From positions 62,001-126,000 of the forward strand of contig JACRMB010000003.1 in assembly GCA_016235065.1 (NCBI GenBank): a stretch of DNA of 64,000 nucleotides, in the 5' to 3' direction. Origin of the DNA: Actinomycetota bacterium. GTDB taxonomy: Bacteria > Actinomycetota > Thermoleophilia > BMS3ABIN01. Made by a program: the position numbers and the translations under genes. Every line of letters begins with the position of its first letter. Within the stretch, counting starts at the first letter, position 1. The notes under the pieces are model-generated. The model worked only from the letters and a program-made list of their open reading frames with translations. It did no database searches and was not told the DNA's origin. Below, piece by piece: positions 44,770-47,802 of the stretch.

Positions 44770-46080
44770 TCAGGAAAACAGGCTGGTAGCCACCAGCAGC
44801 AAGCTCAGTACGATCAACGCGGCAGTAGTCAGGCCGGCAACGATATTGTGCCGGCGGCTGTTGGCGTATTCCCCCATGATCCCCTTGTCGTTCACGATCA
44901 CCATCACGAAGATGAGGATGAGCGGCAGGAGGATGCCGTTCACGTCCTGGGCCAGGACCATGATGCTGAGCAGCGGCAGGTTGGGGATGAGGGCGACGCC
45001 GGCGCCGATGACGATGCTGGCCGTGAAGATGCCGTGGAAGATCGGCGCCTCCCTGAAAGAGCGGTTGACCCCCGATTCGAAGCCGAAAGCCTCGCAGATG
45101 GCGTAGGCGGTAGCGAGGGGCAGGATGCCCGCCGCCAGAACCGAAGCGTTCAGCAGCCCGAAGGCGAACAGGTTGGACGCCCATTCCCCAGCGAGCGGCA
45201 CCAGGGCCTGGGCCGCCTGGTCGGCGGTGTTGATGTCGCCGCCGGTCTTGTAGATGGTCGCCGCGCAGGCGACGATGATGAACAGCGCCACCACATCGGT
45301 GATCACAGCTCCCAGGATGACCTCAGCCTTTGTGTAGCGGAAATGTTTGATGGAGATACCCTTATCCACCACGTATGCCTGGATGAAGAACTGGCCCCAG
45401 GGTGTGATCGTGGTGCCGATGACGGCGATCGACAGCAGGATGTAGCCCGCATTCATCTGGAACGACGGCACCACGGTATCGTGCAGCGCCTGGCCCCAGT
45501 CGGGATGGGCCATGAATCCCGAGATCACGTAGGAAAGATAAAAGGTTGAAAAGACCAGGAAGACCCGCTCGGCGATCTTGTAGGAGCCCCGCACCACCAG
45601 CAGCCAGATGAAGGCGGCCACGAAGGGCACCGTGTAATACTTCGAGGCGCCGAACAGCTGAAAACTCGAAGCGATGCCTGAGAATTCGGAGATGGTCGTG
45701 CCCAGGTTGGCGATCAGCATGGCAATCATGGCGAAGACCGTCATCTTCAGCCGGAAGCGCTCGCGGATCAGCGCCGCCAGCCCCTGGCCGGTCACGATTC
45801 CCATACGGGCGCCCATCTCCTGGGTGACCGCGAGGCTGAGAGTTATGAGCAGGAGCATCCAGAGCATGCTGTAACCGTAGCGGCCGCCGGCCATGGAATA
45901 GGTAGCGATGCCGCCGGCGTCGTTGTCGGCGTTGGCTGTGATCAGGCCGGGGCCGATCAGGGCCAGGAAAAGCAGCAGGCGGGTGCGGCCGATGCGGGGC
46001 ATGTGTGGCAGTCTGGGGCTTGGCAGCTGGGACAGCCGGGAACGGCCGATGTGCGGGAGAGCTTTTATGCGGCGGCGCAT
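44770..46080 (-). CDS. Nramp-superfamily transporter, probably Mg2+ (NRMT-like)
   Basis: A 436-residue protein with about 11 helices of the LeuT/Nramp fold. Helix 1 has ANADNDAGGIATYS (Asp52 and Asp54) where transition-metal Nramps have DPGN. Helix 6 has GTTITPWGQFF where they have the MPH motif, so the metal-selecting methionine is missing. This fits Nramp-related Mg2+ transporters described in Eggerthella. The adjacent PRC-MgtE-CBS protein and the M-box riboswitch both argue for magnesium. ATG 46080 is 15 bp after the partner's stop; a Met at residue 27 is an alternative start. Confidence 0.82.
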   Translation of the reverse strand: MRRRIKALPHIGRSRLSQLPSPRLPHMPRIGRTRLLLFLALIGPGLITANADNDAGGIATYSMAGGRYGYSMLWMLLLITLSLAVTQEMGARMGIVTGQGLAALIRERFRLKMTVFAMIAMLIANLGTTISEFSGIASSFQLFGASKYYTVPFVAAFIWLLVVRGSYKIAERVFLVFSTFYLSYVISGFMAHPDWGQALHDTVVPSFQMNAGYILLSIAVIGTTITPWGQFFIQAYVVDKGISIKHFRYTKAEVILGAVITDVVALFIIVACAATIYKTGGDINTADQAAQALVPLAGEWASNLFAFGLLNASVLAAGILPLATAYAICEAFGFESGVNRSFREAPIFHGIFTASIVIGAGVALIPNLPLLSIMVLAQDVNGILLPLILIFVMVIVNDKGIMGEYANSRRHNIVAGLTTAALIVLSLLLVATSLFS

Positions 46081-46095
46081 GGTCCTGACTCCACC

Positions 46096-47340
46096 CTAGC
46101 CGAAGATCTTCGGCAGCCGTTTCTTCCAGGTAAGGGGAAGGATGATGTCGATGGCGTCGTCGACGGTGACGATGCCACGCAGGATGTTCTCTTCGTCGAT
46201 GATAGGCAGCGCCAGCAGGTTGTACTTGGCGACGACCTGGGCGACTTCCTCGAGCTTGGCGTCGGCGTGGATGCTGATCAGGTGGTGTTCCATGAACTCT
46301 TCGACCTTCTGGTCGCGCCGGGCCAGCAGCAGGTCGCGCAGGGAGATGACACCGGCAAGATGGCCGTCGTCGTCCACCACGTAGATGTAATAGATCGTCT
46401 CCGCGTCGGGCTCCAGCTCGCGCAGGCGGCCGATGGCCTGGCCCGCGGTCATGCCCGGCGGCACGGACACGAACTCGGTGGTCATGATTCCGCCTGCGGT
46501 GTCTTCCTCGTAGCTGAGCAGCTGCTTGACGTCCCGGGCTTCCTTCATGCGCATGGAGGAAAGCAGCGCGGCTGCCTTTTCCTCGGGCAGGTCGGCTAGC
46601 AGGTCTGCGGCGTCATCCGGGTCCATGTTGGAGAGGATGGTTGCCGCCTTCTTCTCGTCCATGTCATTGAGCAGGGTCGCCTGGAAGTTGGGGTGCATCT
46701 CCTCGACAGTGTCGGCGGCGATCTCCGCCTCAAGTGCCTCGACCACAGCGACGCGGTCTTCCGGAGAAAGCTCGTTGGCGATGTCGGCGATGTCGGCGGG
46801 ATGCAGCAGCGCCAGCTTGTCATGGGTCACCTGCAGCTTCATGCCGCTGGTGTCGCCGCCGCTTACCGGTTCCACGGTCTTCCAGTCCAGGAGATGAGGT
46901 TCCACGCGGCGCGATAGCCGTTCAGCCAGGCGTGACAGACCCAGCCGCCGCATGATGGCGCCGCCGGAGATGTCGACTCCCACTACCCGCAGGCTGCCGT
47001 TGGCGCGGGCCAGCTGCAGGTCGTTGACGCGGATGAGCTTGTGGCCTTCGGTGTCGACGATCTGCTTGTCGAGGATGTCTCCGGCCAGGAATATCTCGCC
47101 GTCCTCGGGCTCGACTGCCTTGAGCTCGCCAGCCGGCAGGCGCAGCATGGTCTGGGATTCCTCGAAATTGCGTACCAGCTGCCAGGGAAGCAGCATCTTC
47201 TGCCTACCGCTTTTCACAACCAGCTTGGTGGCTGACGGGTATTTGCGCTTGATGGTGACGACGATGTCGTCCAGTGTGCCCACGGTCTGCGACCGTGAAT
47301 CCTTGACCTGCTGCCCCAGTAACTTGCTCAGAAAAAACAT
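46096..47340 (-). CDS. PRC-barrel / MgtE-N / CBS regulatory protein, no membrane part
   Basis: A 414-residue soluble protein. Two PRC-barrel-like repeats (residues 1-150: LSKLLGQQVKDSRSQTVGTL, LAGDILDKQIVDTEGHKLIRV) precede the MgtE superhelical domain (LLHPADIADIANELSPEDR, NMDPDDAADLLADLPEEKA) and a CBS pair (YEEDTAGGIMTTEFV to VTVDDAIDII). It is the magnesium-sensing cytosolic half of MgtE without the channel. Paired with the Nramp-like gene it probably gates that transporter. ATG at 47340 follows AGGTGGG by 4 nt; the longer frame lacks an SD. It is first gene after the M-box. Confidence 0.88.
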   Translation of the reverse strand: MFFLSKLLGQQVKDSRSQTVGTLDDIVVTIKRKYPSATKLVVKSGRQKMLLPWQLVRNFEESQTMLRLPAGELKAVEPEDGEIFLAGDILDKQIVDTEGHKLIRVNDLQLARANGSLRVVGVDISGGAIMRRLGLSRLAERLSRRVEPHLLDWKTVEPVSGGDTSGMKLQVTHDKLALLHPADIADIANELSPEDRVAVVEALEAEIAADTVEEMHPNFQATLLNDMDEKKAATILSNMDPDDAADLLADLPEEKAAALLSSMRMKEARDVKQLLSYEEDTAGGIMTTEFVSVPPGMTAGQAIGRLRELEPDAETIYYIYVVDDDGHLAGVISLRDLLLARRDQKVEEFMEHHLISIHADAKLEEVAQVVAKYNLLALPIIDEENILRGIVTVDDAIDIILPLTWKKRLPKIFG

Positions 47341-47451
47341 GTTGCCCACCTGCCTTCGATTCCCGACTGACACCCCTTTCGGAGTGCATGCCGATCCGTG
47401 AGACGTAGTCTCAGGAAATCACTTTTCCATAAAACTTCCATATCCGGGAAT

Positions 47452-47473
47452 AAAAAAACCTCCCATGGGGAGG
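47452..47473 (-). terminator. Terminator of the M-box leader
   Basis: CCTCCC-cat-GGGAGG followed by T7 on the minus strand, 110 bp before the start codon; formed in the Mg2+-bound state by analogy with other M-boxes. Confidence 0.8.
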
Positions 47474-47760
47474 CTCAGGCTGGCGCCAGCGGCCACCATC
47501 GCAGGTGGAACCGCCCGCGGCAAGCAGGCAGGCGCGCGTTAGCACGCCTACAAAGGCCTTCCCCAACTCGTACAAGCTTTGGCACAGCGCATCGTAGAGT
47601 GCGGTGGCGGCCTCGGGTCTCGCGACCTGTGCCGTCCATGCTCTCAGCCGTTTCGGGCAGAACCTTATGCCGGTAATGCCTGTTCTACCCGTTGGGGTCT
47701 TTGGACCTTTCCGGGCAACGGCCTGTGTCCGCGCTGGAGCCTCACCTAACGAGGATACGG
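47452..47760 (-). ncRNA. M-box (ykoK) Mg2+ riboswitch with terminator
   Basis: The minus strand contains the M-box core in order: CGTTAGGTGAGGCTCC (47755-47740), ACAGG, TTGCCCGGAAAGGTCC, AAAGACCCCAACGGGT, AGAACAGG and CATAAGG. These match the conserved Mg2+-binding elements of ykoK leaders. The element is longer than usual because of inserted arms. It ends with stem CCTCCC/GGGAGG followed by seven T (47473-47452), a terminator expression platform expected to shut off the downstream transporter genes at high Mg2+. Confidence 0.88.
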
Positions 47761-47773
47761 CTTTGCATTACTA

Positions 47774-47802
47774 AAACTAGTCCCGCCGGCTGGCGATGTC
47801 AA
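47774..47802 (-). promoter_or_regulatory. Promoter of the magnesium transport operon
   Basis: -35 TTGACA (47802-47797), 17-bp spacer, TAGTTT (47779-47774) on the minus strand. The start point would be just upstream of the M-box. Confidence 0.55.

Follow-up and report, generated by a model that had tools for sequence, protein, structure and literature searches.

The locus is a Mg2+-uptake operon whose type has been on record since 2014, located within positions 44770–47802 of the window, the 64-kb stretch of DNA that was analysed. All four of its parts lie on the minus strand and, in the direction of transcription, an M-box aptamer is followed by an intrinsic terminator, the gene for an MgtE-like protein (hereafter the partner) and, 15 bases further on, nrmT. 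The features are:

47760–47555, minus strand: M-box (ykoK) Mg2+ riboswitch aptamer (Rfam RF00380, 132.4 bits, E 1.5e-29)
47476–47456, minus strand: riboswitch intrinsic terminator hairpin, a 9-pair stem GAGCCTCCC/GGGAGGTTT with a T tail
47470–47476, minus strand: terminator 5′ arm GAGCCTC, a putative antiterminator partner, complementary to GAGGCTC at 47743–47737
47340–46096, minus strand: partner of 414 aa with PRC barrel(s), MgtE_N and a CBS pair (Pfam, AlphaFold2 model)
46080–44770, minus strand: NrmT/NRMT-type Nramp transporter of 436 aa (Pfam Nramp, EleNRMT as best PDB match, motif)

Both this three-part arrangement and the feedback hypothesis considered below are found in Shin et al. 2014 (PMC4072509), in which M-box-controlled NrmT genes were described adjoining a homologue of the MgtE cytoplasmic domain, and a cytoplasmic feedback or chaperone role was suggested for this MgtE-N-like neighbour. 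Added here are the near-obligate pairing of the two genes, the MgtE sites that the partner has kept and lost, and long partner frames in relatives. The window's genome encodes a single copy each of CorA, the partner and NrmT, and no MgtE channel was found in it.

The first-pass annotation had placed an M-box with a terminator ahead of the genes, and both are there. The RF00380 match spans the full model (1–169), lies at 132.4 bits well above the gathering cut-off of 44, and is the sole Rfam match at gathering level across the window. The terminator reads GAGCCTCCC-CAT-GGGAGGTTT followed by TTTTATT, with a T run that reaches about 47450; two terminator-like sites were observed in the region, with 0.4 expected from shuffles. 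The terminator arm is fully complementary to GAGGCTC, the 5′ strand at the base of the aptamer, and the predicted duplex has 7 perfect pairs at −20.5 kcal/mol, equalled by 0.005 of shuffled arms. The leader appears to be the usual M-box off-switch, in which the terminator would compete for an aptamer strand by way of a putative antiterminator. A Mg2+ response was demonstrated by Shin et al. 2014 for the M-box leader of Ca_c0685 (PMC4072509). In related leaders the strand of the aptamer base helix that can pair with the terminator arm may be the 5′ or the 3′ one, and some of these pairings are no better than those of shuffled arms. Two Pelosinus loci (L046, 1992–2481; L050, 1997–2475) carry tandem complete M-box aptamers upstream of the partner–NrmT operon, at 161–165 bits each.

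The transporter and its MgtE-like partner

The transporter has a Pfam Nramp match (PF01566) of 322 bits, and its best PDB match is EleNRMT (7qia; E 2e-116, 392 bits), with the next Nramp at 1e-25 and 94 bits. In the alignment, the metal site consists of D54-A-G-G57 in helix 1 and T223-T-I-T226 in helix 6, with DxxG and TxxT in place of DxxN and A/CxxM, respectively, and T226 occupying the methionine position of the Nramp A/CxxM motif. The protein was first annotated as an Nramp-fold transporter without the metal-selective methionine, a description with which these results agree. The NRMT signature is DxxG-TxxA/T (Ramanadane et al. 2022, PMC8806188), and by sequence the window transporter is a member of the NRMT/NrmT clade of SLC11, nearer to EleNRMT than to MntH/DMT.

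Clade membership and the riboswitch together make Mg2+ the likely substrate, although perhaps not the sole ion. The first-pass annotation had treated the riboswitch as independent evidence for Mg2+; it does support Mg2+ when taken with the clade, but as settling the substrate the claim is somewhat overstated, because EleNRMT moves Mn2+ as well as Mg2+, without proton coupling (PMC8806188). The breadth of EleNRMT, together with the rescue of Mn2+ deficiency by the A. capsulatum transporter (PMC4072509), favours a reading in which Mn2+ or another divalent ion is imported by the pair, besides or instead of Mg2+, and is also what the partner senses. We consider this improbable for the window operon, which is under an M-box that answers to Mg2+ and whose transporter lacks the methionine by which Nramps favour transition metals; the A. 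capsulatum gene, by contrast, has no M-box, and neither do the acidobacterial TxxS loci L071, L078 and L099.

At its N-terminus the window NrmT has a short internal repeat, LPHIGRSRL ... PHMPRIGRTRL, and alignments to relatives start 10–30 residues further on. Two other NrmTs (L115:3009–4250, plus strand; L122:2801–4060, plus strand) have NGASG or IGASG for NDAGG, and the helix-1 metal-binding Asp is missing; both are paired with partners of the tailed kind described below.

For the partner, the best start is the ATG at 47340 behind AGGTGG, giving 414 aa, and a 425-aa frame from GTG was set aside in its favour. Its Pfam content is MgtE_N (PF03448, 104 bits), two CBS domains (PF00571) and PRC (36 bits, in two stretches); the MgtE channel domain PF01769 was not found in it by the Pfam search. 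The protein had been described as the cytosolic sensor of MgtE joined to PRC barrels and lacking the channel, and this domain content bears the description out. The AlphaFold2 model (pLDDT 85.5) matches the MgtE cytosolic domain 2yvy with E 4e-23 and an rmsd of 2.1 Å over 230 columns. The chain ends 14 residues past the last aligned CBS residue, with the C-terminal tail LPLTWKKRLPKIFG, and in the alignment to Thermus thermophilus MgtE (TtMgtE) the plug helix with E258/D259 (Mg2, Mg3) is absent. In the literature searched, we found no description joining PRC-barrel, MgtE and magnesium transporter.

The TtMgtE metal sites (PMC5882242) were mapped onto 74 partners, with the numbering verified by F227 and D432. 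The Mg4 acids D91 and D247 are conserved in 72/74 and 74/74 partners, although D247 would be weak evidence alone because it is also an ordinary CBS-motif aspartate. The Mg6 acid D95 is conserved in 72/74, and the Mg7 acid E59 is conserved as D/E in 69/74. At the Mg5 residue D226, most partners have Asn or Gly, as opposed to Asp in 16/17 MgtEs, and the window partner has Asn. As judged from the alignment, the acids of the MgtE N-domain/CBS metal sites are retained in the partner, whereas the CBS-to-plug site and the plug helix have gone. Among the ATP-site residues of the CBS pair, Y170 and R187 are kept, and N203 and F227 are not; an argument for loss of ATP binding from F227L was dropped because 14/17 of the compared MgtEs likewise have Leu.

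The alteration of Mg5, a site needed for MgtE closure, would suit a partner that serves NrmT assembly, stability or membrane targeting, or Mg2+ delivery or buffering, with no gating. The chaperone alternative was named by Shin et al. 2014 (PMC4072509), and close co-expression of partner and NrmT from one operon fits it too. We regard a purely non-gating role as unlikely, given that NrmTs transported Mg2+ in B. subtilis without the partner (PMC4072509) and that the N/CBS interface acids of a known gating sensor persist from phylum to phylum, a conservation for which a scaffold would have no use.

Pairing of the two genes across genomes

In 80 NrmT loci drawn from GTDB genomes of many phyla, a full-length partner is present in 73, always on the same strand as nrmT and in 72 directly upstream of it, with a median gap of about 30 bases; an M-box was detected in 39/80. 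The other seven loci have no full-length partner. In one (L053) the end of the partner is cut by the contig edge, another (L039) also meets a contig end, and a third (L030) carries NrmT twice, with no partner; in the remaining four (L063, L074, L077 and L079, from Clostridia/Selenomonadales), the M-box stands directly before nrmT and the partner is absent. In a separate sample of 159 genomes from the phylum, a full-length partner is encoded by 39 of the 41 genomes with NrmT, compared with 17 of the 118 without (Fisher p 3e-21, a value that overstates independence, as the genomes are related). The two genes are non-adjacent in 8 of these 39 genomes, in 7 of them on different contigs. The pairing is nearly obligate in this sample, and tight linkage of the two genes is supported. 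Plasmid-borne partners of about 30% identity (Alicyclobacillus, Citrobacter, Mycolicibacterium, Arthrobacter and Rhodococcus) also adjoin NRMT-type Nramps, in either gene order.

The partner could instead be a general CBS signalling protein that acts elsewhere, for example on CorA, and shares the operon by coincidence. Six actinomycete loci (L109–L114) do encode a full-length PRC-MgtE_N-CBS relative without NrmT, adjoined by DUF1003 genes in the loci examined; in L109 the next gene is DUF1003 (PF06210, 127 bits) and a CorA-like ORF lies nearby. We judge coincidence very improbable: the linkage spans many phyla, extends to plasmids and is seen in either gene order, and the co-occurrence persists where partner and NrmT are not on one contig.

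Several gene arrangements were seen besides these. On three plasmids (L105, Citrobacter freundii pPSV; L107; L108) the pair is near ArsR-type regulators, a P-type ATPase, MerR and alkylmercury lyase, and such heavy-metal-gene surroundings are odd for a Mg2+ housekeeping system. Tandem NrmT genes occur at L044:654–5254 and L030:1884–5236, with the order M-box, divergent NrmT, partner and second NrmT in L044. No partner–NrmT fusion was found among the 80 loci; apparent 880-aa fusions in G045 and G050 are long frames free of stops that run across two distinct genes.

Partners with an MgtE membrane tail

In 20 genomes of the phylum sample, all 20 of which encode NrmT, the partner open frame extends to 604–681 aa. 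Twelve tailed partners were read, 11 of these 20 (L115–L125) and L052. Three tails match PF01769 (L124 at 44, L115 at 38 and L123 at 35 bits; cut-off 27.6), and as a set the tails align to genuine MgtE domains with 99.4% probability, with shuffled-tail and NrmT controls far lower. Confident alignment to the MgtE membrane domain was obtained for 8/12 tails, and 8/8 of these carry other residues in place of the pore aspartate D432 and of the helix-2 GGN motif; D432 is present in 16/16 MgtEs compared. The tails of L052, L117, L118 and L119 are too divergent for individual scoring, and that of L052 alone gave no Pfam MgtE match and no PDB match, its homology being clear only with the wider set. 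Several of the genomes with tailed partners also encode an ordinary MgtE, and the tailed operon of L116 is under an M-box that scores 124 bits.

These tails are apparent dead MgtE channels, retained in NrmT-bearing genomes and often beside NrmT; within the literature searched, pore-dead MgtE forms of this kind look undescribed. The first-pass annotation had proposed that the MgtE sensor was separated from its channel and attached to an unrelated transporter. Separation from the channel is strengthened by the pore-dead tailed relatives beside NrmT, while the arrangement itself is not new (PMC4072509). On the simplest reading, the partner would descend from an MgtE that lost its pore function after it had come to serve NrmT. 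In an MgtE-rooted tree, the tailed partners branch first in the partner family, with modest support (SH-aLRT 83–92), and the split from MgtE is weak; the tailed forms may be the older ones, or the membrane tail may have been gained by later re-fusion. We tentatively suggest, at somewhat less than even confidence, that the partner family is a former complete MgtE that lost its pore and turned into a regulatory subunit through which an unrelated transporter senses Mg2+, with the window protein as the end state and the tailed Actinomycetota forms as intermediates. The pore-dead forms make this history of the sensor module testable.

Feedback model and known systems

Taken together, we favour, with some reserve, a Mg2+-starvation operon in which the partner is a soluble feedback subunit of NrmT. 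At low cytosolic Mg2+ the aptamer would be open, its base strand would pair with the 5′ arm of the terminator, and polymerase would read into partner and nrmT; at high Mg2+ the aptamer would fold, the terminator would form and the operon would be off. NrmT would be an Nramp-fold Mg2+ importer, by homology uncoupled from protons and driven by the membrane potential. Proton-uncoupled transport makes a brake plausible, and an MgtE-like companion is the obvious candidate. The partner, as the cytosolic Mg2+-sensing half of MgtE with PRC barrels added, would be locked in a compact form by Mg2+ between its N and CBS domains, and the compact form would dock on NrmT, probably via the PRC barrels, and slow uptake. 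The RNA element, the protein families, the steady association of the two genes and the retained N/CBS acids are observed, whereas binding of the partner to NrmT, the docking surface and the direction of control are what we infer.

Several observations argue against feedback. The C. acetobutylicum transporters Ca_c0685 and Ca_c3329 transported Mg2+ in B. subtilis without a partner, and rescue by the A. capsulatum transporter was no better when its partner was co-expressed (PMC4072509). Mg5, a site that TtMgtE needs in order to close, is lost in partners, and Actinomycetes also encode partner-like proteins in the absence of NrmT. If the partner is indeed a detached channel gate that controls an unrelated carrier, a sensor module would plainly have passed from one transporter fold to another.

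Each part of the locus has a known counterpart. Compared with the RF00380 M-box, the leader shares the complete aptamer, the terminator and the predicted strand-swap antiterminator, and differs in one longer variable loop (40 inserted bases) and otherwise in nothing notable. TtMgtE (PDB 2YVX/2ZY9) resembles the partner in its MgtE_N-CBS superposition and shared N/CBS metal-site acids, whereas the window protein is without the plug helix and the membrane channel, has D226 changed to N and has gained PRC barrels. EleNRMT of Eggerthella lenta (PDB 7QIA/7QJI; PMC8806188) has 48% identity to the window transporter and shares the DxxG...TxxA/T site, with TxxA there as opposed to TxxT here; EleNRMT was purified and assayed by itself. 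Shin et al. 2014 (PMC4072509) do not mention, in their main text, the PRC barrels reported here for the partner. The closest operons are those of C. acetobutylicum Ca_c0685 and its relatives, in which an M-box, an MgtE-cytoplasmic homologue and NrmT are likewise joined in one operon with the same proposed role; the partner is split there and a single intact gene in the window, and the host here is an actinomycetote close to MAGs labelled Thermoleophilia.
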